This document shows positions 12,888 through 40,230 of a DNA stretch of 64,000 nt, piece after piece; the first letter of the stretch is position 1; each line of letters starts with the position of its first letter. The translations under genes and the position numbers were made by a program. The notes below the pieces were generated by a model that made no database searches, was not told where the DNA came from, and saw nothing but the letters and a program-made list of their open reading frames with translations. This DNA is from Pirellulaceae bacterium (GTDB lineage: Bacteria > Planctomycetota > Planctomycetia > Pirellulales > Pirellulaceae). The DNA is taken from assembly GCA_026004775.1 (NCBI GenBank), contig BPJU01000017.1, forward strand, positions 1 to 64,000. Direction: 5' to 3'.

Positions 12888-14525
12888 ATGGGACGAGTAA
12901 ATCGAGGTGAGGTTCTGCCGGAAGGCGAACCTCTGCGGCTGGCGTGCATCTCGGAGTGTTCTCGCCAGGAAGCCCTGTTGGGCAAGAACCAGTTGCGAGG
13001 AAAGGATTTTGCCCACAGGCGCAAAACGATTCTCGACACTTGTAACCACTACCTTCCGTCCTTTTCGTTGGAGCTTTATTCGACGGCTGTGCTGCCCAAC
13101 GCCTGGGTAAGCTATCTGCACGTGCATCCGGAGTGGGCAAAGAGTTGGTCGGCTGAGGAGATACTGCTTCGCGTAAAGCGTGCTTTTCCCAGGCCGGTTG
13201 CCAAAAGGTGCAGAAAGCACCGCATCCGCTGGAGGCGTAATGCACCGCCACCGGAAGTGCTTTGCCAGGACGTGGAGTTTATTGAGTATTGGCGGGGGCA
13301 ATTGGCGTCGCTGCCCTTCTTCGAACAAGTGGTCAAGCAGCGCGTGGCGATCCTCTTCAACCAGGAGGACCAGGTAAGCGGCCACTTTTGGTCCGACCGA
13401 TATGGCTCGGTGCCGGTCAATGCCGAGTCGCATTCGATCCTGGTGGCATTGATTCAAGAAATTGAGCTGGTCTCGACTGGTGTGGTCCCGATATCGGAGG
13501 TGTGTCACAGCGGGTCGCTGTGGGACCGATATGTGGGTTTGATGCGTGAGAAAGGCCTGGAAGACGACGACAGCTTGCTCCAGGTGGTAACGGACCTCAA
13601 TGAATTGGTGATCACGGGACTGCGGACTCCGGACGGTGGCCGGATCCAGGTGGCGGGTGTGAGGCGGGAATCCGGGATAGTAGTAGCGGGCGGGCTACAC
13701 GTGCCGGATGGTGCACAGAATTCATCACAGCAAAACCCGTCGCGGCAAAGTCCGTCAAGGCGAAATGCATCAAGGCAACATACGTCCCGGCAAGGCCGGC
13801 AGGCAAATGGGGCGGCGAGTGCCGGCGCTGTTGAGCCAATACAAATTGATGGCTATGTGGAAGAAATACGCGAATTGCTGCCATTGGGTCCGGTGGATTG
13901 CCGGAGGGAGGGCTGGCCGGCAGCCGACGTCGACCAGTGGCACGGGATATCGGGATTCGGGCCGGTCGACCCGGTCGAATGGGTAGCGCTTTCGCGGTGG
14001 TTGGGTGCCACATGGCGCATTTGGCGGCTGATGAAGCCCAGCGCCGATGTGGAAGAGGAGCGGATACGCCGCCCGGGTCGCCATTGGAAAATCACGGACG
14101 AATTGCTCCAGGTAAAGCCGCTGGATGAGAATCTGCGAGACCGAGTGCGCCGGAACTTGGCCCATTGGCTTCAGGTGTGGGGGCAAGCCTGTCAACTGTC
14201 CGGCTTGAGCACGGAGGAAGAGGTTCAACAATGGGTCGAGCGGTTATTGGCGGTAAGGGAGAATCCGGACGAGTTGGCGGGGGTGGTTGCGCTTCTGATG
14301 GGCTATGGCGAGGCGGAGTTGGAGAGGCTGCGCGGGGTGTTGGAGCGGGTGCGGTTGCGGGTAGCTGATGTGATACGGACGGGCGAGGCGTGGGTGCGCA
14401 ATCCGCGGAGGACCGCCAAGGAGTTGTTGGGGTTTAACGATTGGGTGAGGCGGCGGCGGGCAGTGTTGCGTAGGCAGCGCGAGGAGCGGGCAGGCTCGGA
14501 CGAGAATCGGTTGGACTCGAGTTAG
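12888..14525 (+). CDS. RAYT/IS200-like transposase derivative with degenerate HUH motif
   Basis: A 545-residue protein whose first ~230 residues align by pattern with planctomycete REP-associated tyrosine (Y1/IS200-like) transposases: LPNAWVSYLHVHPEWAKSW at residues 69-87 where the family has NHxH, then a segment like RxxNxxDxxxGxFWxxRY (GHFWSDRY, 165-172). The HUH histidines appear replaced (N-A-W-V), so catalysis is doubtful. Residues 280-304 are five tandem 5-residue units (SRQxx type) encoded by 15-bp repeats. The C-terminal ~120 residues are helical and charged. The ATG has a strong AAGGAG site 9 nt upstream. The last 117 codons lie within the duplicated segment and recur at 22946-23299. 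Family inferred from motif pattern only. Confidence 0.65.
   Translation: MGRVNRGEVLPEGEPLRLACISECSRQEALLGKNQLRGKDFAHRRKTILDTCNHYLPSFSLELYSTAVLPNAWVSYLHVHPEWAKSWSAEEILLRVKRAFPRPVAKRCRKHRIRWRRNAPPPEVLCQDVEFIEYWRGQLASLPFFEQVVKQRVAILFNQEDQVSGHFWSDRYGSVPVNAESHSILVALIQEIELVSTGVVPISEVCHSGSLWDRYVGLMREKGLEDDDSLLQVVTDLNELVITGLRTPDGGRIQVAGVRRESGIVVAGGLHVPDGAQNSSQQNPSRQSPSRRNASRQHTSRQGRQANGAASAGAVEPIQIDGYVEEIRELLPLGPVDCRREGWPAADVDQWHGISGFGPVDPVEWVALSRWLGATWRIWRLMKPSADVEEERIRRPGRHWKITDELLQVKPLDENLRDRVRRNLAHWLQVWGQACQLSGLSTEEEVQQWVERLLAVRENPDELAGVVALLMGYGEAELERLRGVLERVRLRVADVIRTGEAWVRNPRRTAKELLGFNDWVRRRRAVLRRQREERAGSDENRLDSS
13725..13799 (+). repeat. 15-bp minisatellite inside the RAYT-like gene
   Basis: Five consecutive 15-bp units encode the pentapeptides SQQNP, SRQSP, SRRNA, SRQHT and SRQGR. 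The reading frame is kept. It forms a probably disordered, basic linker between the N-terminal transposase-like domain and the C-terminal helical part. Confidence 0.75.
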
Positions 14526-14777
14526 TGTCGTGTGGTGGATGAAAATTCACTTTTTCGGAAGCTTTTTTAGCAGCCCGGAAGGGGTTGCGGGGTGAGAGTC
14601 TTGTCTGAGGTGGCTCGTAGGAACCAGTAATTGGTCTTTTGGGCTTCTCCTTGAGGCTTTTCTGAGCGGTGTAGTGGCTGTCGGGGCGAACACGCGCCCG
14701 GGAAGTACCGATATTGTCTAATGGCTCAATCCGCAATTAGGGTGGTATCGGTTCGCGGCCCCGCCGGCAAAACCGCA

Positions 14778-14888
14778 GTGCCTGGCACCAGGCTTTTGGC
14801 GGTAACGGTAGTGCCTGGCACCACCTTTTCTGGTTGGCGCAGTGCCTGGCACCTCGTTTTTCGGCCCGCGGACTGGAGTGTCTGGCAC
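14778..14888. repeat. array of four GTGCCTGGCAC palindromes, copy A
   Basis: The near-perfect palindrome GTGCCTGGCAC occurs at 14778-14788, 14811-14821 and 14842-14852, with a GTGTCTGGCAC variant at 14878-14888. Spacing is 31-36 bp. It lies about 250 bp after the RAYT-like gene, the arrangement expected for REP-type sequences mobilised by such transposases. Each unit can form a small hairpin. Confidence 0.8.
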
Positions 14889-15302
14889 CCCTGTTTCGTC
14901 GTGGCTCGGTCGTCGGCGTGCCCAGGACAAACTCCACACGCCGTCGCCCGCTTCTTCTGCGAAACCAGACCCGGGAATTCCCTTCATCCGTTCCGGCGAC
15001 CACGGCCCTGGCCAGCTCTCGCTTCGTCCCAGAATCCAGACTCCGAACCTCCGCGTTAACACAAAGTCAACAATTGGTCCTTTGATCTGAACGACCACGG
15101 CACGGTGTCGACTGGCAAATGACCACGTCGCACGTCCACGGCACACTGAAATCCTTGTAACCGGAAACCGTGCTGTGACGAAGCACCAGGCCCAGCGGCA
15201 ATCCTACTATGTCTCGCGAAGCGGCCATCGCACGGCAACCGACCTCGGGCGCTGAAAATCGTTTTCCGATTGCTGGTCCATCGCCCACCTTCCGGACGAC
15301 CG

Positions 15303-16289
15303 TCAGCGCCGCTGGGAATAGCCGATACCCACGAAAAAATCATCGGCGGACTTGTTCAAGCCTAAACCGGCCCGAATATCCCATTGAGTATCATCGTTAA
15401 CCAGTAAGTAAAACCTCCGTCCAGAAAATGGTCGGAGCGATCTTGCTGATCGCCGTCGGTGTGCAACACGAAATACTCGAAGAAACCACCCACACGTTCG
15501 GTAAAGGCCCAGCCCGTCGTCACGGACTGATGGAAAACAATCTGTTGGTCCCGAAACGAAAACTCTCCCAGTGGCAACGAAACCAGCACCAACTCGCTGC
15601 CGGTTTGAGCCCCGCTGGAACCGGCGATTGACCATCTTTCGGTGATATCCCACCCGTAAAGCCAGTTTACTCCCGATTCCAGATGGCGATGTGAGAAAGC
15701 GCGCGCCCCGGTGGGAACTCCCAATTGCAGGATCACCGCCGACTCGGGCCACCAACGTTGCTGCTGGCTGAGTGCCAGCTTGACTCCTACCACCATATCC
15801 TCCGCACCGTCGATCGGTTCGCTCACTCCCCGTGGATTTCGTATTCTGCCAAAGATAAGTCCACGCCAGCCGGAATTCGATGTCGTCCGAAAAACCGTAG
15901 CGCACCAGAAGTTCCGGGGCCGTGTGTGCTCGGTGAATCACGCCGTCCTCCACGTCATACGTGAACGTATAACCGGTCTCGAACTGCACGCGACCTCGTG
16001 GCACTGTGGAACTGGCTTCCGTAAAGTCAGGCCTGTCCGTGGCGATCGGTTCGCCCTGGGCTAGATCTTGCCCGCGTACAATCCGATTCAGGGTGTCCAG
16101 GCCGTCCGGGTGAGAATTCCCCATCTCCCCCGAATACCACACGGCGCGTTCCTCGGACACTACCCGTTCGCACAACGCCTGTGCAAAGATCCTCCCTTCC
16201 CATTCTCCCCACAACGACATCGGCGCCAAAACCACCGTGATGGCTCGAAGGATGAGCTTCCCTCCTGTCGGACAGGTATGAGCGTACAT
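15303..16289 (-). pseudogene. outer-membrane transporter-like protein (PF13557 type), copy A, frameshifted
   Basis: The product resembles the Phenol_MetA_deg/'transporter' outer-membrane family: after a signal peptide (start ATG at 16289) it has ATDRPDFTEASSTVPRGRV, then QFETGYTFTYD and LLVRYGFSDDIEFRLAW, and ends with a beta-rich barrel and DDFFVGIGYSQRR. Near 15833 copy A has one base too many for the frame, so the middle is read wrongly; near 15405 a one-base loss restores the last ~35 codons. Copy B is broken differently at the first site. The intact gene would encode about 330 residues. Probable location: outer membrane; substrate unknown. Confidence 0.7.
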
Positions 16290-16599
16290 CGGTGAATACC
16301 CGGTATATCGAAACTTTTTTCTGCAAAAAGCACGGGGCGCGAACACCACAACTCCGCGACAGGAATTTGCCCTGCTGAATTGGATCGACAAAAATAGCAT
16401 TTTTGTATGACAAAAATCGGCACGTTTGCTTTGGTTTTCGAGCTAAGATGGCAACGACTCAGCGACAAGTCGGCCAAAGGCGCTGGCTCATATAGGCAAG
16501 CCCATCCGACTTGCCACTCTTCTTGCCGCCGGTTGGGAGGCTCTGGAAGATACTTGCAGGTGCCAAGAGAACTGGGCCAGGCGGAAGCTGGTCGTATCG

Positions 16600-17316
16600 C
16601 TATTCTATTGGGCCAACCATTTTGCGGTGAAATTCTTCGGGAAACGCTCCGGTTTGCAAAAAGGCGGATGTGGCGCGAGCCGCTTGCCGGCTGACGAGCA
16701 ACCCGGAATGGATGGTACGAATAACGATCATTTGAACGGGGCGATTCAACCGCAGCGAGTCGGGGGGGACCAGCAGGTCGAATTCGGCGGCAATAATACC
16801 CACCTCGATAGGTGGGGGAACATCAGCCAGGCGGCGAACCCAACTACCGGGCTCATCAGACAACTGCCCAATCGGTGGAAGCCATTTTTCCACGAACCGG
16901 CGCACGTGCCGCGCCACGTGTGAGCCTTGGTTGGGGGGAGCGAGCATGACAAAGCGCTGAAATTTTTCTGTGGGCAGTTGGGTCAGCGCGTAGCGAATCA
17001 GCAGGTTTCCCATACTGTGCCCAACCAAATGGATACGAGGCACATCGTCACGGTCGGCCAGCGTTTTTAGATAATCGCGTAGTTGGTCGGCTGACTGGTG
17101 AATTGGCTGCCAGAGACTTTTGTATCCCCAGGTAACGGCACGGAATCCGGCGCGCCTTAGATGGCGAGCCAGGGGCGCAAGGAGCACACGATGGGAGGCC
17201 AACCCGTGGACGAGCAGTACCCATTCGGGGCGCGATTGCGGGCCGGTCGACGAAGGCGTCAACTCCCATGAAGGAGTATTTCGGCTGCCCGGCTGATGCT
17301 GGTCCCGATGTGGCAT
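16600..17316 (-). CDS. alpha/beta hydrolase (lipase-like), copy A
   Basis: A 238-residue hydrolase. VLLVHGLAS (about residues 33-41) forms the oxyanion-hole region, GHSMG (99-103) is the nucleophile elbow with Ser101, EFDLLVP carries the likely acid Asp, and TIHSGLLVS the catalytic His, completing a Ser-Asp-His triad. No clear signal peptide, so it is probably cytoplasmic. The start ATG at 17316 lies 4 nt after the stop of the lactate permease, so the two form an operon. The substrate is unknown; the fold also covers esterases and thioesterases. Confidence 0.85.
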   Translation of the reverse strand: MPHRDQHQPGSRNTPSWELTPSSTGPQSRPEWVLLVHGLASHRVLLAPLARHLRRAGFRAVTWGYKSLWQPIHQSADQLRDYLKTLADRDDVPRIHLVGHSMGNLLIRYALTQLPTEKFQRFVMLAPPNQGSHVARHVRRFVEKWLPPIGQLSDEPGSWVRRLADVPPPIEVGIIAAEFDLLVPPDSLRLNRPVQMIVIRTIHSGLLVSRQAARATSAFLQTGAFPEEFHRKMVGPIE

Positions 17317-17320
17317 TCCG

Positions 17321-19141
17321 CTATCCCTCCGGTTGCGAAACGGGCTGGTATGCCGGGCGTTTGCGGGCCGAAACGGCCAGCACGATCAGCCAGAGGCCGA
17401 TTACCAGCGCCAGCGGGATGCTGGCGAGAAGCCCATGTGTCGGGTACCACACGATGGCAAATCCGATCGCTCCGGGCACCGATGCGTAATAAGCAAACGG
17501 AAGCAGTGTCTTGCGGATGACTTGTCCTTCTTTGCCCAGCAATCCAACGACGGCCGAGGCAGCCACCACGTTGTGCACGCAGATCATGTTACCGGCGGCT
17601 CCGCCCACGGCCTGCAGCGCCACTATCCAGCCCGGATCCACTCCCAACCGCATGCCCATACCGAACTGGAAAAGAGCGAACATCATATTGCTGACCGTAT
17701 TGCTACCGGCCACGAAGGCTCCCAAGCCTCCCACCAGAGGTGCCAGAAGCGGCCATGCCGGCCCCACCAATTCGGCCATTCCGTTGGCCAGAGCAATCGG
17801 CATCTTGGGATAACCACTCGTGCCATCGCTATGGATGAATACTTGGACCATCGGTACGGTGAACAGGAGCGCTGTCGAGGCAGCCAGCGTGGTGCGAGCC
17901 GCTTTCGTAAAACAGTTCTGGATCTGCTGCCAGGAAAAGCCCGATGCAAGAGCGGTCAACAACGACACGACGACGAACACGGTTCCGGGCGAGTAGGCCC
18001 ACTCGAATCGGGCATCGATTCCCGAGCCAAACAAATTCGGAAGTTGCCATGTCCATTGCCGCAGCCACGCCTGGAGACTGTCTTGGGGAGAGCCGGTAAG
18101 TGACACGCGGTTCCAGCGAGTCAGCACCAGCAGCAATCCGACTGCCAAGTACGGTCCCCAGGCTCGTAAGGGGTGCATCGAAGGTCGAACCGAAGATCGT
18201 TCGGCGGGTTGCCAAAGCCCGATCCATTCGGCGGGCCATCTGCCCGGCGGTTCGAACTCCCAGGGTGCCCCTCGCGGCAAGAGCCAACCTTGGCGGCATG
18301 CCCAGCTGACAACGGCAAGTCCGATCAAGCCTCCGAACAAGGAGGGGAACTCCGGTCCCAGCACCAAGGCGACCAACAGATAGGGGAGGGTCATCGCCAC
18401 CGCGGCAAACAGGGCAAACGGCCATACTTCCAGACCGTCGCGTATCGAGCGCCGGGGGCCGAAAAAGCGAGTCATCGTGGCGACCAACACCAGCGGTACG
18501 AGGGTGCCGGTGACCGCGTGCAGGATTGCCACTCGTCCGCCCAACAAGCTCAGCAGCGGATAATCGTTATCCGTGGGCAGTTGAAATGCCCGCGCATATT
18601 CGACGACTTCAGGAGCGTTCCGTAGACCCTCGCGCACACCGAGCAGAATCGGTGTTCCCACAGCACCGAACGATACCGGGGTGCTCTGGATGATCATACC
18701 GGCCACCACGGCGGCCATCGGCGGAAAGCCCAGCCCCACCATCAGCGGCACGGCTACAGCCGCCGGAGTCCCGAACCCCGATGCACCCTCCATGAACGCG
18801 CCGAACAGCCAAGCAATGAGGATCACTTGGATACGGCGGTCGGGAGTTACGTGACCTAACCGGTGGCGTATCGTGGCCAGAGCGCCACTCTCTTCCAGCG
18901 TATTCAAGAGCAGGATGGCACCGAAGATGATATACAGCAGTGACAGGGCCACAATCAAACCATTGACCGTGGCGGCGGCGATGCGCTGAGGGGCGACCTG
19001 CCAGATCGCCCAGGCCAACAGCAGAACCACCAAGTACGAACACGGCATGGCTCGACTGGCCGGCCAGCGCAAACCGACCAGCAGCAGTGCTACGACTGCA
19101 ATCGGTCCAAGCGCCAGCAAAGCCAGCAGTCCATCCGACAA
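17321..19141 (-). CDS. lctP: L-lactate permease (LctP family), copy A
   Basis: A polytopic inner-membrane carrier of about 606 residues with 12 or more hydrophobic segments. Family hallmarks are the [13 protein letters not shown] region, the [20 protein letters not shown] segment, [14 protein letters not shown], and near the C-terminus [19 protein letters not shown] and [12 protein letters not shown]. LctP proteins import lactate or glycolate with protons. The preferred start is TTG at 19141, 9 nt after a CGGGAG site; a TTG at 19174 would add 11 residues. The product feeds lactate toward pyruvate, which the PFOR at 58-62 kb could oxidise, although no lactate dehydrogenase is seen here. Nucleotide sequence appears identical in copy B. 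Confidence 0.93.
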
Positions 19142-19378
19142 TGCTCGAACCTCCCGGCACCCCACTCTTACCAACGGCCGTCATTATACCGGTTTGTCAA
19201 AGCTCGATAACCGCTCACTTCGTTCAACAGCCACACGTCAAAGTCGTTCTTATTCGTCCCGGCAACAAACCGGCTCGGGAACCTACGACAAGCGCGCATC
19301 TGGACCGGCACTGCGGCATCGAGTAGGCTGACAACAGTAACCGATAGAGATCGCCGCAGTTTGACGAGGGATGTGCAG

Positions 19379-20278
19379 ATGAGAAGTTACCGGGTGTGGG
19401 TGTTGCTAACCATGTTGGCCGCAGTGTTGGCTTGGCAGCGGGAGCTGTACGGGCAGCCGCCGCTTAAGGCACTGATCGTCGACGGGCAGAATAATCACGG
19501 CGTCTGGCCCAAGACTTCCCAAATGATGAAGGCCTACTTGGAAAAGACCGGCTTGTTCTCTGTAGACATTGCCCGTACCAAACCTCAAGGTGTCGACCCG
19601 GATTTCCAGCCCAGGTTCTCCGATTACCACGTCGTCGTTTCCAATTACAACGGAGCCCCTTGGCCGGAAAAGACTCGGCAGGCTTTTGTCGAATATGTGC
19701 GCAACGGAGGCGGCTTTGTGGTTGTCCATGCCGCCAACAACGCCTTTCCGGATTGGCCCGAATACAACCAGATCATTGGGCTGGGCGGATGGGGTGGACG
19801 CAATGAAAAATCCGGGCCCTATGTGTATGTGGATGAGCAAGGTGGCATCGTGCGGGATACTCGACCCGGGCCCGGCGGTCACCACGGCTCACAGCACCCG
19901 TTCTTGATCGTGGTCCGCGACCAGCAACATCCTATCACGCAAGGTATGCCCGCAGCATGGATGCATGCTCAGGATGAGTTATACGATTTTCTTCGAGGTC
20001 CGGCCGAGAACATGCACGTACTGGCTACCGCCTACGCCGACCCGAAGTACGGTGGCTCGGGGCGTCATGAGCCGATGTTGATGGTTATTCATTATGGTAA
20101 AGGCCGCGTTTTTCACACCCCTATGGGCCACGGCGATTATTCCCAGGAGTGTGTCGGGTTCATCGTTAGTTTTCAGCGGGGAGCCGAGTGGGCAGCGACC
20201 GGCAAGGTAACGCAGCCGCTTCCCGATGATTTCCCCACCGCAGACAAGGTGGTACAAAGAAAATTTGCTGAGCGATAG
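19379..20278 (+). CDS. ThuA-domain secreted protein, copy A
   Basis: A 299-residue protein with a Sec signal peptide ([20 protein letters not shown]) and a ThuA/glutamine-amidotransferase-like fold: [17 protein letters not shown], then [20 protein letters not shown], and [15 protein letters not shown] near the end, all typical of planctomycete ThuA proteins. ThuA is linked to trehalose and disaccharide use in rhizobia, but the planctomycete members are uncharacterised. The ATG at 19379 is preceded by GAGGG; an upstream start at 19361 is less likely because it would precede the signal peptide awkwardly. Divergent from the lactate permease. Confidence 0.88.
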
Positions 20279-20371
20279 CGGACAGTGCGCGCTGCCTGTT
20301 TCCGGTATGTGGCCGGATCGACAGCCGCTGAAACGCCACACGCTATTCGCGGAGAAATAGGGACCTGGGCC

Positions 20372-21184
20372 ATGACGCACGTCACGACACGCCGCAGTTT
20401 TTTCGATGGATCACGGCGCGGACCATGGTTATGCCTGATCGTTGCGGCCGGCACGCTTTGCGCTACCGTTCCCACCATGGGCCAGGAACTTCAGCGAGAA
20501 GCATTCCATCTGGAAGGTAAACTCCAACGCTTGGCCCCCGGGCTACTTCAAGTAGCCGATGAGCAGGGTAATGTTTGGTTGGTGAAAATCGAAGCGAACC
20601 CGCGGGACGTATCGTTTTCCGCCACAGCCGCGCCTGAGTGGCTGGGGCCGGGAATGTGGGTGCGTTTTTCGGCCGTGCTCGACCAGCGATTGCAGGCACA
20701 AGAGCCCGTCAAGGAACTGACGGTTTTCACTCCTCTTGACCCATCCCAACTGGGTATCATCCCTCAAGTCTCGTTAGGCAAAGAGATCTTCGCGCCGCCG
20801 GAACCGCAAAGCGATCAGACGAACAAACCGCAGTTGTGCCTGGTGGCCGGACGGCTGGTGGGAATGGCCCGAGGGAAAACGACGCGCGTGTCAGTGTTGG
20901 CTGGTACCAATACCCTAACGGTAAACTTGGCCGAGCCAGCCAAAATTATTGTGGAAGTCTCGGATCTATCATGGGCCAAGCCGGGTGACAAAGTGGTTCT
21001 GGACGGATGGTACTATCCGATGATTCCTGGACGAGCCATAGCGAACCGCATTTCGGTGAGCGCATCGGCAGAACTGGCCCCGGCTCGCACTCGTCCCGCC
21101 AGGCGCCCCAGAGCTTCCGAGTCCCCGCGGGTGCCGCAACAACCCGAATCATCGGACCCGAATGCGGCGCCACCCCCAGGCTAA
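20372..21184 (+). CDS. secreted protein of unknown function, copy A
   Basis: A 270-residue protein starting at ATG 20372 with a Sec signal peptide (WLCLIVAAGTLCATVPTMGQ). The mature part is beta-rich with no family I recognise; it contains two similar-looking modules (HLEGKLQRLAPGLLQVADEQ and LVAGRLVGMARGKTTRVSVL) that suggest an OB- or S1-like repeat, and a Pro/Arg/Ser-rich tail. It follows the ThuA gene by about 95 bp on the same strand. Present in both duplicated copies with the same protein sequence from this start. Confidence 0.7.
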   Translation: MTHVTTRRSFFDGSRRGPWLCLIVAAGTLCATVPTMGQELQREAFHLEGKLQRLAPGLLQVADEQGNVWLVKIEANPRDVSFSATAAPEWLGPGMWVRFSAVLDQRLQAQEPVKELTVFTPLDPSQLGIIPQVSLGKEIFAPPEPQSDQTNKPQLCLVAGRLVGMARGKTTRVSVLAGTNTLTVNLAEPAKIIVEVSDLSWAKPGDKVVLDGWYYPMIPGRAIANRISVSASAELAPARTRPARRPRASESPRVPQQPESSDPNAAPPPG

Positions 21185-21258
21185 CGGCCGTATTTCCGCC
21201 CCAACATCAAATCCAGATCTTCACGGTCTGTCCACGTGAAGGCCGTTTTTGCAAGTAG

Positions 21259-21287
21259 TTGTCGAAGGGGGCGGTCAAGCTTATAAT
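21259..21287 (+). promoter_or_regulatory. sigma70-like promoter of GAPDH, copy A
   Basis: TTGTCG at 21259-21264 and TATAAT at 21282-21287 are separated by 17 bp. The GAPDH start lies about 125 bp downstream, leaving a long leader. Confidence 0.6.
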
Positions 21288-21322
21288 CGGGCGAACGCGA
21301 ATGGATTTCCCATTGTGTTTGA

Positions 21323-22450
<1,128 letters not shown>

Positions 22451-22684
22451 GATTGCCAGGGCCACAGCAACAGCCGCCCAATTCTGAAGCCATTCGATGC
22501 GCAGCGGCACGTCCGGGTCTCGGGGAAATTACTGCGTCCCGAGGCTGGCAAATTGATCTGGACCGGCCCGGAAGAGTTGGTAGACTTCGCGACCGGCGCA
22601 TTCTCGGGATGCCGGATCTACCACAGGCGGTCGCCGGCCGGTAACAGGCCGCCCCGCGTTCGTCCGGACAAGGAGATTCGGAAC

Positions 22685-23299
22685 GTGCCACGTGCTGAGC
22701 TTCTAACCAATTGCCGCGGCGCCGGCCGTTTTTGGCTTTACCTCATGGTGTTCGCCTTCTCGTCCACGCTGACCGGATGGCAACCAGCCGCAAAGTCACT
22801 CAGGGCACAACCGGCACCACAAACTGCCGGCGGCGACGGAGCCATCGATCGGTGGCTGCGATCTGTGCCACAACACCACGTCGCACCAGCTTCTTTCCTG
22901 GACATCACCCCAGGCCGTACCCGCCGCGATGAACTGCAAGCCTGGCAGGTGTGGGGGCAAGCCTGTCAACTGTCCGGCTTGAGCACGCAGGAAGAGGTTC
23001 AACAATGGGTCGAGCGGTTATTGGCGGTAAGGGAGAATCCGGACGAGTTGGCGGGGGTGGTTGCGCTTCTGATGGGCTATGGCGAGGCGGAGTTGGAGAG
23101 GCTGCGCGGGGTGTTGGAGCGGGTGCGGTTGCGGGTAGCTGATGTGATACGGACGGGCGAGGCGTGGGTGCGCAATCCGCGGAGGACCGCCAAGGAGTTG
23201 TTGGGGTTTAATGATTGGGTGAGGCGGCGGCGGGCAGTGTTGCGTAGGCAGCGCGAGGAGCGGGCAGGTTCGGACGAGAATCGGTTTGACTCGAGTTAG
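22685..23299 (+). CDS. chimeric gene at duplication junction: TPR-protein N-terminus fused to RAYT-like C-terminus
   Basis: A 204-codon frame created by the tandem duplication. Residues 1-87 equal the start of the TPR protein gene of copy B (31453 onward), including its AAGGAG ribosome site, GTG start and signal-peptide-like segment LYLMVFAFSSTLTGWQ. Residues 88-204 equal residues 429-545 of the RAYT-like protein with one Glu-to-Gln change visible. The fusion point falls exactly between codons at 22945/22946. It is driven by the GAPDH operon context, so it could be expressed and exported. Function unknown; it may be an accident. Confidence 0.9.
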   Translation: MPRAELLTNCRGAGRFWLYLMVFAFSSTLTGWQPAAKSLRAQPAPQTAGGDGAIDRWLRSVPQHHVAPASFLDITPGRTRRDELQAWQVWGQACQLSGLSTQEEVQQWVERLLAVRENPDELAGVVALLMGYGEAELERLRGVLERVRLRVADVIRTGEAWVRNPRRTAKELLGFNDWVRRRRAVLRRQREERAGSDENRFDSS

Positions 23300-23551
23300 T
23301 ATCGTGTGGTGGATGAAAATTCACTTTTTCGGAAGCTTTTTTAGCAGCCCGGAAGGGGTTGCTGGGTGAGAGTCTTGTCTGAGGTGGCTCGTAGGAACCA
23401 GTAATTGGTCTTTTGGGCTTCTCCTTGAGGCTTTTCTGAGCGGTGTAGTGGCTTTCGGGGCGAACACGCGCCCGGGAACTACCGATATTGTCTAATGGCA
23501 CAATCCGCAATTAGGGTGGTATCGGTTCGCGGCCCCGCCGGCAAAACCGCA

Positions 23552-23659
23552 GTGCCTGGCACCAGGCTTTTGGCGGTAACGGTAGTGCCTGGCACCACTT
23601 TTTCTGGTTGGCGCAGTGCCTGGCACCACGTTTGGCCCGCGGACTGGAGTGTCTGGCAC
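23552..23659. repeat. array of four GTGCCTGGCAC palindromes, copy B
   Basis: The same four units as in copy A, at 23552, 23585, 23616 and 23649 (the last GTGTCTGGCAC). The palindromes are conserved while the spacer before the last one has lost 3 bp relative to copy A. Confidence 0.8.
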
Positions 23660-24073
23660 CCCTGTTTCGTCGTGGCTCGGTCGTCGGCGTGCCCAGGACA
23701 AACTCCACACGCCGTCGCCCGCTTCTTCTGCGAAACCAGACCCGGGAATTCCCTTCATCCGTTCCGGCGACCACGGCCCTGGCCAGCTCTCGCTTCGTCC
23801 CAGAATCCAGACTCCGAACCTCCGCGTTAACACAAAGTCAACAATTGGTCCTTTGATCTGAACGACCACGGCACGGTGTCGACTGGCAAATGACCACGTC
23901 GCACGTCCACGGCACACTAAAATCCTTGTAACCGGAAACTGTGCTGTGACGAAGCATCAGGCCCAGCGGCAATCCTACTATGTCTCGCGAAGCGGCCATC
24001 GCACGGCAACCGGCCTCGGGCGCTGAAAATCGTTTTCCGATTGCTGGTCCATCGCCCACCTTCCGGACGACCG

Positions 24074-25059
24074 TCAGCGCCGCTGGGAATAGCCGATACC
24101 CACGAAAAAATCATCGGCGGACTTGTTCAAGCCTAAACCGGCCCGAATATCCCATTGAGTATCATCGTTAACCAGTGAAGTAAAACCTCCGTCCAGAAAA
24201 TGGTCGGAGCGATCTTGCTGATCGCCGTCGGTGTGCAACACGAAATACTCGAAGAAACCACCCACACGTTCGGTAAAGGCCCAGCCCGTCGTCACGGACT
24301 GATGGAAAACAATCTGTTGGTCCCGAAACGAAAACTCTCCCAGCGGCAACGAAACCAGCACCAACTCGCTGCCGGTTTGAGCCCCGCTGGAACCGGCGAT
24401 TGACCATCTTTCGGTGATATCCCACCCGTAAAGCCAGTTTACTCCCGATTCCAGATGGCGATGTGAGAAAGCGCGCGCCCCGGTGGGAACTCCCAATTGC
24501 AGGATCACCGCCGACTCGGGCCACCAACGTTGCTGCTGGCTGAGTGCCAGCTTGACTCCTACCACCATATCCTCCGCACCGTCGATCGGTTCGCTCACTC
24601 CCCGGATTTCGTATTCTGCCAAAGATAAGTCCACGCCAGCCGGAATTCGATGTCGTCCGAAAAACCGTAGCGCACCAGAAGTTCCGGGGCCGTGTGTGCT
24701 CGGTGAATCACGCCGTCCTCCACGTCATACGTGAACGTATAACCGGTCTCGAACTGCACGCGACCTCGTGGCACTGTGGAACTGGCTTCCGTAAAGTCAG
24801 GCCTGTCCGTGGCGATCGGTTCGCCCTGGGCTAGATCTTGCCCGCGTACAATCCGATTCAGGGTGTCCAGGCCGTCCGGGTGAGAATTCCCCATCTCCCC
24901 CGAATACCACACGGCGCGTTCCTCGGACACTACCCGTTCGCACAACGCCTGTGCAAAGATCCTCCCTTCCCATTCTCCCCACAACGACATCGGCGCCAAA
25001 ACCACCGTGATGGCTCGAAGGATGAGCTTCCCTCCTGTCGGACAGGTATGAGCGTACAT
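24074..25059 (-). pseudogene. outer-membrane transporter-like protein (PF13557 type), copy B, frameshifted
   Basis: Duplicate of 15303-16289. Here the frame after WTYLWQNTKS meets a stop because the junction near 24604 is one base short, whereas copy A is one base long. The rest (from VSEPIDGAEDMVVG to the end at 24074) is uninterrupted, including the site near 24176 where copy A lost a base. An in-frame ancestor would have had six bases between these parts, where A has seven and B five. Confidence 0.7.
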
Positions 25060-25369
25060 CGGTGAATACCCGGTATATCGAAACTTTTTTCTGCAAAAAG
25101 CACGGGGCGCGAACACCACAACTCCGCGACAGGAATTTGCCCTGCTGAATTGGATCGACAAAAATAGCATTTTTGTATGACAAAAATCGGCACGTTTGCT
25201 TTGGTTTTCGAGCTAAGATGGCAACGACTCAGCGACAAGTCGGCCAAAGGCGCTGGCTCATATAGGCAAGCCCATCCGACTTGCCACTCTTCTTGCCGCC
25301 GGTTGGGAGGCTCTGGAAGATACTTGCAGGTGCCAAGAGAACTGGGCCAGGCGGAAGCTGGTCGTATCG

Positions 25370-26086
25370 CTATTCTATTGGGCCAACCATTTTGCGGTGA
25401 AATTCTTCGGGAAACGCTCCGGTTTGCAAAAAGGCGGATGTGGCGCGAGCCGCTTGCCGGCTGACGAGCAACCCGGAATGGATGGTACGAATAACGATCA
25501 TTTGAACGGGGCGATTCAACCGCAGCGAGTCGGGGGGGACCAGCAGGTCGAATTCGGCGGCAATAATACCCACCTCGATAGGTGGGGGAACATCAGCCAG
25601 GCGGCGAACCCAACTACCGGGCTCATCAGACAACTGCCCAATCGGTGGAAGCCATTTTTCCACGAACCGGCGCACGTGCCGCGCCACGTGTGAGCCTTGG
25701 TTGGGGGGAGCGAGCATGACAAAGCGCTGAAATTTTTCTGTGGGCAGTTGGGTCAGCGCGTAGCGAATCAGCAGGTTTCCCATACTGTGCCCAACCAAAT
25801 GGATACGAGGCACATCGTCACGGTCGGCCAGCGTTTTTAGATAATCGCGTAGTTGGTCGGCTGACTGGTGAATTGGCTGCCAGAGACTTTTGTATCCCCA
25901 GGTAACGGCACGGAATCCGGCGCGCCTTAGATGGCGAGCCAGGGGCGCAAGGAGCACACGATGGGAGGCCAACCCGTGGACGAGCAGTACCCATTCGGGG
26001 CGCGATTGCGGGCCGGTCGACGAAGGCGTCAACTCCCATGAAGGAGTATTTCGGCTGCCCGGCTGATGCTGGTCCCGATGTGGCAT
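25370..26086 (-). CDS. alpha/beta hydrolase (lipase-like), copy B
   Basis: Identical in protein sequence to the hydrolase at 16600-17316, with the GHSMG nucleophile elbow. It starts 4 nt after the stop of the second lactate permease copy and shares its transcript. Confidence 0.85.
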   Translation of the reverse strand: MPHRDQHQPGSRNTPSWELTPSSTGPQSRPEWVLLVHGLASHRVLLAPLARHLRRAGFRAVTWGYKSLWQPIHQSADQLRDYLKTLADRDDVPRIHLVGHSMGNLLIRYALTQLPTEKFQRFVMLAPPNQGSHVARHVRRFVEKWLPPIGQLSDEPGSWVRRLADVPPPIEVGIIAAEFDLLVPPDSLRLNRPVQMIVIRTIHSGLLVSRQAARATSAFLQTGAFPEEFHRKMVGPIE

Positions 26087-26090
26087 TCCG

Positions 26091-27911
26091 CTATCCCTCC
26101 GGTTGCGAAACGGGCTGGTATGCCGGGCGTTTGCGGGCCGAAACGGCCAGCACGATCAGCCAGAGGCCGATTACCAGCGCCAGCGGGATGCTGGCGAGAA
26201 GCCCATGTGTCGGGTACCACACGATGGCAAATCCGATCGCTCCGGGCACCGATGCGTAATAAGCAAACGGAAGCAGTGTCTTGCGGATGACTTGTCCTTC
26301 TTTGCCCAGCAATCCAACGACGGCCGAGGCAGCCACCACGTTGTGCACGCAGATCATGTTACCGGCGGCTCCGCCCACGGCCTGCAGCGCCACTATCCAG
26401 CCCGGATCCACTCCCAACCGCATGCCCATACCGAACTGGAAAAGAGCGAACATCATATTGCTGACCGTATTGCTACCGGCCACGAAGGCTCCCAAGCCTC
26501 CCACCAGAGGTGCCAGAAGCGGCCATGCCGGCCCCACCAATTCGGCCATTCCGTTGGCCAGAGCAATCGGCATCTTGGGATAACCACTCGTGCCATCGCT
26601 ATGGATGAATACTTGGACCATCGGTACGGTGAACAGGAGCGCTGTCGAGGCAGCCAGCGTGGTGCGAGCCGCTTTCGTAAAACAGTTCTGGATCTGCTGC
26701 CAGGAAAAGCCCGATGCAAGAGCGGTCAACAACGACACGACGACGAACACGGTTCCGGGCGAGTAGGCCCACTCGAATCGGGCATCGATTCCCGAGCCAA
26801 ACAAATTCGGAAGTTGCCATGTCCATTGCCGCAGCCACGCCTGGAGACTGTCTTGGGGAGAGCCGGTAAGTGACACGCGGTTCCAGCGAGTCAGCACCAG
26901 CAGCAATCCGACTGCCAAGTACGGTCCCCAGGCTCGTAAGGGGTGCATCGAAGGTCGAACCGAAGATCGTTCGGCGGGTTGCCAAAGCCCGATCCATTCG
27001 GCGGGCCATCTGCCCGGCGGTTCGAACTCCCAGGGTGCCCCTCGCGGCAAGAGCCAACCTTGGCGGCATGCCCAGCTGACAACGGCAAGTCCGATCAAGC
27101 CTCCGAACAAGGAGGGGAACTCCGGTCCCAGCACCAAGGCGACCAACAGATAGGGGAGGGTCATCGCCACCGCGGCAAACAGGGCAAACGGCCATACTTC
27201 CAGACCGTCGCGTATCGAGCGCCGGGGGCCGAAAAAGCGAGTCATCGTGGCGACCAACACCAGCGGTACGAGGGTGCCGGTGACCGCGTGCAGGATTGCC
27301 ACTCGTCCGCCCAACAAGCTCAGCAGCGGATAATCGTTATCCGTGGGCAGTTGAAATGCCCGCGCATATTCGACGACTTCAGGAGCGTTCCGTAGACCCT
27401 CGCGCACACCGAGCAGAATCGGTGTTCCCACAGCACCGAACGATACCGGGGTGCTCTGGATGATCATACCGGCCACCACGGCGGCCATCGGCGGAAAGCC
27501 CAGCCCCACCATCAGCGGCACGGCTACAGCCGCCGGAGTCCCGAACCCCGATGCACCCTCCATGAACGCGCCGAACAGCCAAGCAATGAGGATCACTTGG
27601 ATACGGCGGTCGGGAGTTACGTGACCTAACCGGTGGCGTATCGTGGCCAGAGCGCCACTCTCTTCCAGCGTATTCAAGAGCAGGATGGCACCGAAGATGA
27701 TATACAGCAGTGACAGGGCCACAATCAAACCATTGACCGTGGCGGCGGCGATGCGCTGAGGGGCGACCTGCCAGATCGCCCAGGCCAACAGCAGAACCAC
27801 CAAGTACGAACACGGCATGGCTCGACTGGCCGGCCAGCGCAAACCGACCAGCAGCAGTGCTACGACTGCAATCGGTCCAAGCGCCAGCAAAGCCAGCAGT
27901 CCATCCGACAA
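26091..27911 (-). CDS. lctP: L-lactate permease (LctP family), copy B
   Basis: Identical in protein sequence to the permease at 17321-19141; the same TTG start with CGGGAG site is present. The second copy doubles the gene dose of lactate uptake, a possible selective reason for keeping the duplication. Confidence 0.93.
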
Positions 27912-28148
27912 TGCTCGAACCTCCCGGCACCCCACTCTTACCAACGGCCGTCATTATACCGGTTTGTCAAAGCTCGATAACCGCTCACTTCGTTCAACAG
28001 CCACACGTCAAAGTCGTTCTTATTCGTCCCGGCAACAAACCGGCTCGGGAACCTACGACAAGCGCGCATCTGGACCGGCACTGCGGCATCGAGTAGGCTG
28101 ACAACAGTAACCGATAGAGATCGCCGCAGTTTGACGAGGGATGTGCAG

Positions 28149-29048
28149 ATGAGAAGTTACCGGGTGTGGGTGTTGCTAACCATGTTGGCCGCAGTGTTGG
28201 CTTGGCAGCGGGAGCTGTACGGGCAGCCGCCGCTTAAGGCACTGATCGTCGACGGGCAGAATAATCACGGCGTCTGGCCCAAGACTTCCCAAATGATGAA
28301 GGCCTACTTGGAAAAGACCGGCTTGTTCTCTGTAGACATTGCCCGTACCAAACCTCAAGGTGTCGACCCGGATTTCCAGCCCAGGTTCTCCGATTACCAC
28401 GTCGTCGTTTCCAATTACAACGGAGCCCCTTGGCCGGAAAAGACTCGGCAGGCTTTTGTCGAATATGTGCGCAACGGAGGCGGCTTTGTGGTTGTCCATG
28501 CCGCCAACAACGCCTTTCCGGATTGGCCCGAATACAACCAGATCATTGGGCTGGGCGGATGGGGTGGACGCAATGAAAAATCCGGGCCCTATGTGTATGT
28601 GGATGAGCAAGGTGGCATCGTGCGGGATACTCGACCCGGGCCCGGCGGTCACCACGGCTCACAGCACCCGTTCTTGATCGTGGTCCGCGACCAGCAACAT
28701 CCTATCACGCAAGGTATGCCCGCAGCATGGATGCATGCTCAGGATGAGTTATACGATTTTCTTCGAGGTCCGGCCGAGAACATGCACGTACTGGCTACCG
28801 CCTACGCCGACCCGAAGTACGGTGGCTCGGGGCGTCATGAGCCGATGTTGATGGTTATTCATTATGGTAAAGGCCGCGTTTTTCACACCCCTATGGGCCA
28901 CGGCGATTATTCCCAGGAGTGTGTCGGGTTCATCGTTAGTTTTCAGCGGGGAGCCGAGTGGGCAGCGACCGGCAAGGTAACGCAGCCGCTTCCCGATGAT
29001 TTCCCCACCGCAGACAAGGTGGTACAAAGAAAATTCGCTGAGCGATAG
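28149..29048 (+). CDS. ThuA-domain secreted protein, copy B
   Basis: Identical in protein sequence to copy A at 19379-20278, with a silent change in the last codons (ttt/ttc, Phe). The intergenic region just after its stop is one of the few places where the copies clearly differ. Confidence 0.88.
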
Positions 29049-29139
29049 CGGCGGGCGCGCTGCCTGCTTCCGGTACGTGGCCGGATCGACAGCCGCTGAA
29101 ACGCCACACGCTATTCGCGGAGAAATAGGGACCTGGGCC

Positions 29140-29952
29140 ATGACGCACGTCACGACACGCCGCAGTTTTTTCGATGGATCACGGCGCGGACCATGGTTAT
29201 GCCTGATCGTTGCGGCCGGCACGCTTTGCGCTACCGTTCCCACCATGGGCCAGGAACTTCAGCGAGAAGCATTCCATCTGGAAGGTAAACTCCAACGCTT
29301 GGCCCCCGGGCTACTTCAAGTAGCCGATGAGCAGGGTAATGTTTGGTTGGTGAAAATCGAAGCGAACCCGCGGGACGTATCGTTTTCCGCCACAGCCGCG
29401 CCTGAGTGGCTGGGGCCGGGAATGTGGGTGCGTTTTTCGGCCGTGCTCGACCAGCGATTGCAGGCACAAGAGCCCGTCAAGGAACTGACGGTTTTCACTC
29501 CTCTTGACCCATCCCAACTGGGTATCATCCCTCAAGTCTCGTTAGGCAAAGAGATCTTCGCGCCGCCGGAACCGCAAAGCGATCAGACGAACAAACCGCA
29601 GTTGTGCCTGGTGGCCGGACGGCTGGTGGGAATGGCCCGAGGGAAAACGACGCGCGTGTCAGTGTTGGCTGGTACCAATACCCTAACGGTAAACTTGGCC
29701 GAGCCAGCCAAAATTATTGTGGAAGTCTCGGATCTATCATGGGCCAAGCCGGGTGACAAAGTGGTTCTGGACGGATGGTACTATCCGATGATTCCTGGAC
29801 GAGCCATAGCGAACCGCATTTCGGTGAGCGCATCGGCAGAACTGGCCCCGGCTCGCACTCGTCCCGCCAGGCGCCCCAGAGCTTCCGAGTCCCCGCGGGT
29901 GCCGCAACAACCCGAATCATCGGACCCGAATGCGGCGCCACCCCCAGGCTAA
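29140..29952 (+). CDS. secreted protein of unknown function, copy B
   Basis: Same 270-residue product as copy A (20372-21184). The differing upstream sequence opens a longer in-frame extension in this copy (to 28996), but the shared ATG directly before the signal peptide is the better start. Confidence 0.7.
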   Translation: MTHVTTRRSFFDGSRRGPWLCLIVAAGTLCATVPTMGQELQREAFHLEGKLQRLAPGLLQVADEQGNVWLVKIEANPRDVSFSATAAPEWLGPGMWVRFSAVLDQRLQAQEPVKELTVFTPLDPSQLGIIPQVSLGKEIFAPPEPQSDQTNKPQLCLVAGRLVGMARGKTTRVSVLAGTNTLTVNLAEPAKIIVEVSDLSWAKPGDKVVLDGWYYPMIPGRAIANRISVSASAELAPARTRPARRPRASESPRVPQQPESSDPNAAPPPG

Positions 29953-30026
29953 CGGCCGTATTTCCGCCCCAACATCAAATCCAGATCTTCACGGTCTGTC
30001 CACGTGAAGGCCGTTTTTGCAAGTAG

Positions 30027-30055
30027 TTGTCGAAGGGGGCGGTCAAGCTTATAAT
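30027..30055 (+). promoter_or_regulatory. sigma70-like promoter of GAPDH, copy B
   Basis: TTGTCG at 30027-30032, 17-bp spacer, TATAAT at 30050-30055; identical to copy A. Confidence 0.6.
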
Positions 30056-30090
30056 CGGGCGAACGCGAATGGATTTCCCATTGTGTTTGA

Positions 30091-31218
<1,128 letters not shown>

Positions 31219-31452
31219 GATTGCCAGGGCCACAGCAACAGCCGCCCAATTCTGAAGCCATTCGATGCGCAGCGGCACGTCCGGGTCTCGGGGAAATTAC
31301 TGCGTCCCGAGGCTGGCAAATTGATCTGGACCGGCCCGGAAGAGTTGGTAGACTTCGCGACCGGCGCATTCTCGGGATGCCGGATCTACCACAGGCGGTC
31401 GCCGGCCGGTAACAGGCCGCCCCGCGTTCGTCCGGACAAGGAGATTCGGAAC

Positions 31453-33337
31453 GTGCCACGTGCTGAGCTTCTAACCAATTGCCGCGGCGCCGGCCGTTTT
31501 TGGCTTTACCTCATGGTGTTCGCCTTCTCGTCCACGCTGACCGGATGGCAACCAGCCGCAAAGTCACTCAGGGCACAACCGGCACCACAAACTGCCGGCG
31601 GCGACGGAGCCATCGATCGGTGGCTGCGATCTGTGCCACAACACCACGTCGCACCAGCTTCTTTCCTGGACATCACCCCAGGCCGTACCCGCCGCGATGA
31701 ACTGCAAGCCTGGCTGGCGAAAACCTCCGGAGAAAAACCCGATCTGAATGCGGATCAATGGAAAGTGACCGTCGCCCCGTTCAAGAGTGTGGAAATCGTA
31801 TTCCGGCAACGGCATTGTCTCACAGGTGTCGGTGGAATTTCCGGAAGCAAAACCTTTTGAAGAAGTGCGCGATGAGCTTCGTCTTGCACGCTTCGTGTTG
31901 GTGGCCAATGACAGCCAACCCGGAACGGCTTCGTGGTTGGTGCCCGAGCGCGGAATGCGCCTGCGGTTGGAAGGAGAAACAGAACCGCTGCTGGTTCGAG
32001 GCATCGACCTGTACGAACCGCGCGCCGAAGATTTCGTGCTGCGTGCCTGGCGGAATGAAACGTTGCGGATAGCCGAAGCTCTGGCCGATCTGGAATACGC
32101 TTTACAGCAAGATCCCGCGGACAAATGGGCCTTGTTGGGATTGGCTCGAAGATGGGAACTGGTGGGCTATCCGGAACAGGCTGCGGCACGGCTGGCCGCC
32201 AGCGGCAGTCCTTCCCAATTGGTTCGTTTCGAGCAGGCACGGCTCCTGGCGATCAGTGGGTACGACTCCCAAGCGACGGCTCTGTTAGATCAAGCTTCAG
32301 TATCCGAGGATACGGCTCCGCTCTTGAAGTCGCTCTACGCTTTGGCCAAAGCCGAGGCTCTTGCGCGGACTCCCGCGAACGCCGCTCAGCAGGCCGCCTT
32401 GGCCGAATATGCGGCGGCTGTCGAGTGGTCACAAAAAGCGCTAGCCGGTAGTCGATTGTTGGAACGCTACTTGCTGCGCGACATACTGCTGGCAGCCTAT
32501 ACCGGGGCCGCTCGCGTCATTGCCGCGGGGCCTTTTCGTAACCGCGCCGAATCGGTCACTCGGTGGTTGCAACCAGCCGACCAGATGCTTGCCCACACGC
32601 AACACGCCGGAGACGCTTGGCTCACGGGGCGCGGTCGCCTGTGGGAGGCGCGTCTGGGGTGCTTCAGCGCGCTGAAGGATCCGGCGGTCGAGATTCCTTC
32701 CGAAATCCAAATCCAACAGTGGGTCGATCTTTTGCTTGCCCAGGGCGAGGATGCTTTCGGGGAACGCTCAGCCAAAACGTGGGGCGGACGAATCTGGCTG
32801 CGGGCGGCCGAGGCGGCTCTGGCCAACGGCGACATCGAACGTGCCAGCCGCGCCGCCCAACAAGCCGCGCTCCTGCTGGCCGACACCACGCAAAAACAGC
32901 CTCCCTATCCCCACGGTGAAACGTGGCTCGGGCAAACATACTACTTGCTGGGTGCCATCGAAGCCATCGGCCGGCGCAATCATGCAGCAGCCCTGAGATG
33001 GTACGACCGGGCTTTGCCTCTGCTGGAGGAACCGGCCGTCAGGATAGTGGGAATCCGATTGGTGGCTAATCAATGGGTGAGTATCGGCATCTCGTATTGG
33101 GAAACGGGCGACCAGCCGGCGGGCTTGCGCTACACCCAAAAAGGTTGGCAAATGCTGGAGGCTGCCATCCGGGACGGAAAATGCCCCGCCGAAGCTGCTC
33201 GCGTCGCCTGCCAAAACCTGGCCTACATGTACAAGACACTCGGTGATGCGGATAACGCCCAGCGGATGGCTGAACTGGCTCGCACCCTCGCTTCAGGCTC
33301 GACGCCCGCCCCCATGCCTGCCACCCCAATGCGGTGA
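31453..33337 (+). pseudogene. secreted TPR-like protein, one frameshift
   Basis: The GTG at 31453 has an AAGGAG site 9 nt upstream and begins a signal-peptide-bearing protein. The frame is lost at about 31797-31803, where one base appears to be missing: the ends KSVEIV and YSGNGIVSQVSVEF join well. The second part runs to 33337 and contains helical repeats with TPR character (ALADLEYALQQDPADKWALL, KTLGDADNAQRMAELA). The joined product is about 628 residues. It follows GAPDH on the same strand. Function unknown, probably a periplasmic or secreted scaffold. The single indel may be a sequencing error. Confidence 0.7.
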
Positions 33338-39440: not shown

Positions 39441-40230
39441 AGGGCGTGGGAAGTTTTTCCGCAAGCGGGGGGAGAGGGCAGTGGGTAATTTTTTCCCGCA
39501 AGCAGCGCAACGAGCGTGCCGAAAGGGTTTATCCTGCACTTTAGGGGGGCGTGGTGAGGGCGTTAGTTACTCTTCTGCCCCCCTCACCCTACCCTCTCCC
39601 CCCGCAAGCGGGGGGAGAGGGAGTGGGAAGTTTTTTTCCGCAAGCGGGGGGGAGAGGGCAGTGGGTAATTTTTTCCCGCAAGCAGCGCAACGAGCGTGCC
39701 GAAAGGGTTTATCCTGCACTTTAGGGGGGGCGTGGTGAGGGCGTTAGTTACTCTTCTGCCCCCCTCACCCTACCCTCTCCCCCCGCAAGCGGGGGGAGAG
39801 GGCGTGGGAAGTTTTTTCCGCAAGCGGGGGGAGAGGGCGTGGGCGAAGTCCTGCCCACTCTCCCCGGAAGCGGGGGGGAGAGGGAGTGGGTAATTATTTT
39901 CCGCAAGCAGCGGACCGAGCGCGCCAGAAGGGTTTTTGGGGCCTTTAGGGGGGTGGGTCGTGGTGAGGGGGTTAGGTACCCTTCTGCCCCCCTCACCCTA
40001 CCCTCTCCCCCCGCAGGCGGGGGGAGAGGGCGTGGGAAGTTTTTCCCCAGGCGGGAAAAGAGGGCGTGGGAAGTTTTTCCGCAAGCGGGAGGAAATGGAG
40101 TAGGAAGTTTTTTCCGGAAGCGGGCGAAGAGGGAGTAAGAAGTTTTTCCGCAGGCGGGGGAAGAGCGAGTAGAAAGTTTTCTTCGTAGGCGGGGAGGGAG
40201 GGGGTGGGTAACGTTTTTTTCCGCAATCAG
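39441..40230. repeat. GC-rich repeat array
   Basis: A tandem array of the repeat family. Two units of about 180 bp are nearly identical (39481 and 39661 onward); a more divergent third unit starts near 39900. Each contains 'caacgagcg', 'gcactttaggggg', 'cccccctcaccctaccctct' and the long palindrome built on ccctctccccc. After 40030 only short degenerate blocks (gggcgtgggaagtttttccg) remain. Apparent ORFs here are repeat translations. Confidence 0.85.

Follow-up and report, generated by a model that had tools for sequence, protein, structure and literature searches.

A chimeric reading frame at the join of an 8.77-kb tandem duplication in a Pirellulaceae bacterium

When a reading frame runs across the join of a tandem duplication, has a gene been born, or is the frame simply carried along with the copied DNA? 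This question is raised by a chimeric frame in a Pirellulaceae bacterium (assembly GCA_026004775.1), located on contig BPJU01000017.1, the first 64,000 nucleotides of which constitute the window analysed here. A preliminary description, made from the letters of the window alone, had proposed that the frame joins the start of a secreted TPR protein to the end of a RAYT-like protein, and that it might be a newborn gene, exported and placed behind GAPDH. Our own reading, to which we assign a probability of roughly 0.8, is that the chimera is a real junction frame in the assembly and a hitch-hiking by-product of a short-junction tandem duplication, not a working gene.

The join and the duplication around it

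The features on which the argument rests are the following.

12888-14525, + strand: RAYT-like open reading frame, first parent; 545 aa, intact; one of 22 near-full-length dispersed copies
14172-22945: first copy of the duplication, 8774 bp (self-BLAST, 99.65% to the second copy; difference map)
21413-22450, + strand: first GAPDH copy, protein identical to that of the second copy at 30181-31218
22670-22675, + strand: AAGGAG, a ribosome-binding-site-like sequence 9 nt before the GTG
22685-23299, + strand: chimeric open reading frame; GTG start, 204 aa and then a TAG stop, frame open
22685-22945, + strand: 5' part of the chimera, from the TPR-like gene; 87 codons, identical to 31453-31713
22945/22946: join point, 1 nt of microhomology (C at 22946)
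22946-23299, + strand: 3' part of the chimera, RAYT-like; 117 codons plus stop, matching 14172-14525 with 4 substitutions and matching paralogues in the same genome
22946-31714: second copy of the duplication, about 8769 bp (self-BLAST; difference map)
23551-23627, + strand: three REP-like palindromes AGTGCCTGGCACC downstream of the chimera, with their originals at 14777-14853
31453-33337, + strand: TPR-like gene, second parent; two overlapping frames, 31453-31860 and 31787-33337

Self-BLAST finds one large direct repeat in the 12-34 kb part of the window (14172-22946 versus 22946-31714). Its two copies lie head to tail with the chimeric frame at their join, and are 99.65% identical over 8776 columns, with 23 mismatches and 5 gap openings. 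The fusion of 87 TPR-like residues to the last 117 residues of the RAYT-like protein is borne out by the sequence matches to both parents. Each parent is cut at a codon boundary, as had been claimed, with (22946-22685)/3 = 87 codons on one side and (14172-12888)/3 = 428 codons on the other, the boundary being uncertain by one base since the C at 22946 is compatible with either parent. It had also been pointed out that a random join has a one-in-three chance to be in frame, and this holds: the other two phases, in which one or two bases are skipped, yield frames of 98 or 151 aa. Agreement of the frames thus provides a likelihood ratio of three at most, and is not surprising by itself.

The homology of 1 nt at the join fits an illegitimate, short-junction duplication. 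A shared 9-mer, GCAAGCCTG, is found at 22936-22944, in the TPR-like gene just left of the join, and at 14184-14192, about 12 nt to the right in the RAYT-like gene. We do not consider it the cause of the join, since it does not coincide with the true junction and is no more than slightly out of the ordinary, such sharing occurring in 1.3% of random 60-nt pairs.

The differences between the copies are strongly clustered. Of 28 events, 19 fall within the first 1.66 kb (14172-15833), on the left of the duplication, where divergence is about 1%; the following 4.4 kb (15834-20265) contain none (P about 3e-9 under a uniform rate), and six are packed into the 43 bp of 20266-20308, a patch for which no donor was found elsewhere in the genome. 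This clustering suggests partial homogenisation of the copies by recombination, and a duplication older than its identical middle would imply. The GAPDH copies differ at three DNA positions and encode the same protein, a pattern consistent with constraint on whole genes. A gene resembling PF13557 (Phenol_MetA_deg) on the - strand (15303-16400 and 24074-25170) appears frame-disrupted in both copies, with indels that differ per copy.

Might the tandem copy, and with it the join, be false, created during assembly by strain variants or by a chimeric read? The patchiness of the differences between copies would suit this, and frameshifts in conserved genes of the window (DUF255, DUF3731 and the TPR-like gene) suggest that assembly indel errors occur here. 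Against it stand the differences between the copies, about 28 events in all, and the fused copy has substitutions that are present in 0 of 21 paralogues (1 of 21 at one site), so that it is not a simple echo. The join moreover sits well within a sequence of continuous letters, the contig being 151 kb long and the window free of N, and on its TPR-like side it is located in low-copy DNA, such that confusion of repeats alone would be insufficient. We consider an artefact unlikely.

Elsewhere in the window, a DUF255 (Thioredox_DsbH) gene on the - strand (434-2544) is apparently broken up into three frames, as is an Hsp70/DUF3731 gene (8065-10907) into adjacent frames, pointing to assembly indel errors or gene decay. 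The window also carries G-rich direct repeats (CCGCAAGCGGGGGGAGAGGG...) at 1-378 and 39459-40215, two clusters in which a 68-nt unit occurs ten times altogether.

The two parent genes

The RAYT-like parent belongs to a family whose 22 copies are about 91-96% identical over the gene, with an uninterrupted frame in 16 of them. Further diverged RAYT-like subfamilies have 6 and 5 copies (all RAYT-like loci together being L010-L031 and L161-L171). Over residues 1-214, the parent can be aligned to RAYT-like proteins from related genera, with BLASTP E-values as low as 9e-24, while a search of it for Pfam Y1_Tnp gave no match. The HUH motif is missing, with NAWV in place of the NHLH-type sequence of relatives, and is also absent from the two diverged subfamilies; the catalytic tyrosine of the YxxxNP type is missing as well, with LIQEIE where relatives have YVDLNP. 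Both positions are replaced in all copies examined from this genome, the two subfamilies included. Among the copies, dN/dS is about 0.05 over residues 121-240. By this measure, the family is under purifying selection even though the copies examined are without the catalytic residues.

The palindrome AGTGCCTGGCACC occurs at 66 sites in the genome and at none in a reversed control, mostly in arrays of 1-4 that lie about 250-385 bp after a RAYT-like stop codon. The family thus resembles RAYT / TnpA_REP (PMC2817692, PMC6006769) in its homology to RAYT-like proteins that contain the HUH motif and the tyrosine, and in the REP-like palindromes that follow its genes, and differs from them in that the HUH motif and the catalytic tyrosine are replaced. 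A Y1 transposase gene with an open frame of 157 aa is present on another contig.

The second parent, at 31453-33337, is the only complete TPR-like gene. The preliminary description called it a secreted TPR protein; the chimeric frame is indeed potentially secreted, whereas the TPR label falls short of the curated Pfam cut-off (TPR_19, E=0.01). Homologues in relatives are about 24-31% identical, the relatives compared being 30-40 genomes, all of other genera. Relative to them, the gene has a net 1-nt frameshift near 31803-31808, which reflects either decay or sequencing error, and is not rearranged.

Expression, product and constraint of the chimera

With respect to expression, the chimera's upstream DNA is that of the native TPR-like gene. 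The ribosome site AAGGAG and the GTG start are present as described, and the proposed signal peptide is putative, resting on a hydrophobic stretch (FWLYLMVFAFSSTLT, residues 16-30 of the chimera) that is compatible with one. Because the whole 5' region of the TPR-like gene has been copied, expression of the chimera is possible, and its transcription and translation probably reach much the same level as those of the native gene. The chimera does lie downstream of GAPDH, as had been noted, but its regulatory setting is not a new one: 235 bp separate GAPDH from the start of the native TPR-like gene, an arrangement that predates the duplication and was copied unchanged by it. No sigma-70-like promoter was found around the chimera, the promoter and terminator scans performing no better than shuffles; the single terminator-like match lies inside the chimeric frame and is below chance expectation. 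This gene order was not found in the GAPDH neighbourhoods of named genomes. In one relative (L044), GAPDH and a TPR-like homologue are close together, on opposite strands.

What the frame would encode is fragmentary on both sides. The TPR-like part stops at residue 87, within a region conserved in relatives (about residues 58-119), such that the putative signal peptide is kept, along with approximately the first half of the conserved N-terminal region. The RAYT-like part starts at residue 429 of 545, within a C-terminal region common to two other subfamilies. Hence, neither parental conserved region is whole, and the RAYT-like core is absent. In searches of the chimera against Pfam and NCBIfam, no family or domain was recognised; an NCBIfam match to DsbB (E=0.22) was dismissed as a chance similarity with the hydrophobic segment. 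AlphaFold predictions on single sequences were of low confidence (mean pLDDT 45 for the chimera and 37 for the RAYT-like protein), and no conclusion was drawn from them.

In the RAYT-derived coding part of the chimera there are 4 substitutions in 354 nucleotides, and in the adjacent noncoding DNA 12 in 776 nucleotides (Fisher P=0.79). Of the coding changes, two are synonymous and the other two replace an amino acid (E to Q, L to F), giving a dN/dS of about 0.33 against a paralogue average of 0.22 in the same region, an estimate that derives from four changes only. A random substitution in this part has a chance of about 4.5% of introducing a stop, and the frame is expected to be stop-free after four changes in 83% of cases. 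Where the intact copy and the fused one differ, the family copies in the same genome allow the changes to be polarised: at 7 of 9 substitution sites in 14214-14726, the state of the fused copy is rare or private, whereas the intact copy agrees with the family majority. At the remaining two, site 14214 is polymorphic in the family, and at 14726 it is the intact copy that is unusual. Since the divergence equals that of noncoding DNA, and since an open frame is expected anyway, the RAYT-derived half shows no trace of constraint; weak purifying selection is compatible with so few changes.

These results bear on the proposal that the chimera is a functional newborn gene, translated, exported and maintained by selection while its flanks diverged by about 1%. 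The proposal draws on an in-frame fusion with the entire 5' region of a gene whose protein is probably secreted, a ribosome-site-like sequence and a stop that has been kept, on a frame that is open despite about 1% divergence, and on the precedent that chimeric genes formed by duplication can act at once, as with the sigH fusions of Staphylococcus aureus (PMC3486894). Those fusions kept nearly all of SigH, whereas here the RAYT-like core is absent, both conserved regions are truncated with no domain recognised, and the RAYT-derived part diverges no slower than noncoding DNA. The newborn gene that was suggested at the outset is therefore not upheld, and we regard it as very improbable.

Origin and significance of the chimera

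We favour the by-product reading, under which an error of replication or repair would have joined a point in the TPR-like gene (31713/31714) to a point in the RAYT-like gene (14171/14172). Such a join, with about 1 nt of homology, would have produced the 8.77-kb head-to-tail duplication; its structure is directly visible, and its mechanism is what we infer. Any tandem duplication with its ends in two same-strand genes fuses the 5' part of the right-hand gene to the 3' part of the left-hand one, and here both genes are on the + strand. Their frames happened to agree, and the outcome is a chimera of 204 codons with the complete TPR-like 5' region, its ribosome site and a putative signal peptide. 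The product, a truncated piece of a conserved region with a tail, is most likely useless and drifting.

REP elements are sites of duplication in enteric bacteria. This, together with the 22 dispersed and highly similar copies as recombination sites, one of them 109 kb away on the same contig in direct orientation, would speak for a route in which two RAYT-like copies (e.g., 12888 and 122374) underwent homologous exchange and a deletion later reshaped the join. This route, however, needs its second step to have removed tens of kb and to have ended in that same gene, and the present join has 1 nt of homology, so that we give it very little credence.

A short-junction origin has bacterial precedents. 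In Acinetobacter baylyi, illegitimate duplications have been found whose joins show 0-5 bp of homology (PMC9997567), a minimal homology like the 1 nt seen here; those amplicons were experimentally selected and span 12-290 kb, and a chimeric frame was not described. Closer in outcome are the short-junction tandem duplications of S. aureus that gave the in-frame fusions nusG'-'sigH and rplK'-'sigH (PMC3486894). There as here, the copies are head to tail with short homology at the join, and the 5' end of a downstream gene, with promoter, ribosome site and start, is fused in frame to the 3' part of an upstream gene. The S. aureus units are 1.2-1.9 kb long with 7-8 bp direct repeats, compared to 8.77 kb and 1 nt in our case; SigH is nearly complete, whereas each parent here contributes a partial region, and the fusion protein was seen on a Western blot, whereas the product of the chimera is predicted. 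In Drosophila, chimeric genes are likewise a by-product class of tandem duplications with breakpoints inside genes (PMC4503668), though that system is eukaryotic and its evidence population-genetic.

This leaves the question of why the duplication is still there. In S. aureus the duplication was reversible (PMC3486894), while the copies here have partly diverged, by about 1%. In Pseudomonas aeruginosa, short duplications are lost with a half-life of about 770 generations (17.8 kb), and those of 2.6-3.3 kb with half-lives of several thousand generations (PMC12607827). Set against such rates of loss, the roughly 1% divergence near the join hints that the duplication has been retained, perhaps via the dosage of whole genes, for which GAPDH, a lactate permease and a ThuA-domain protein may be candidates. 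The chimera would then persist through the persistence of the duplication and not through selection of its own.

If both expression of the chimera and selection for it were demonstrated, this would be one of the rare cases in which a bacterial gene was born in nature, and not under selection in the laboratory, where two duplicated copies meet. For now, the chimera illustrates cleanly how frames of this type come about, and it cautions that an open, in-frame junction frame is weak evidence for a new gene. More curious than the chimera is the RAYT-like family itself, multi-copy and conserved without its catalytic residues, which may merit a study of its own.
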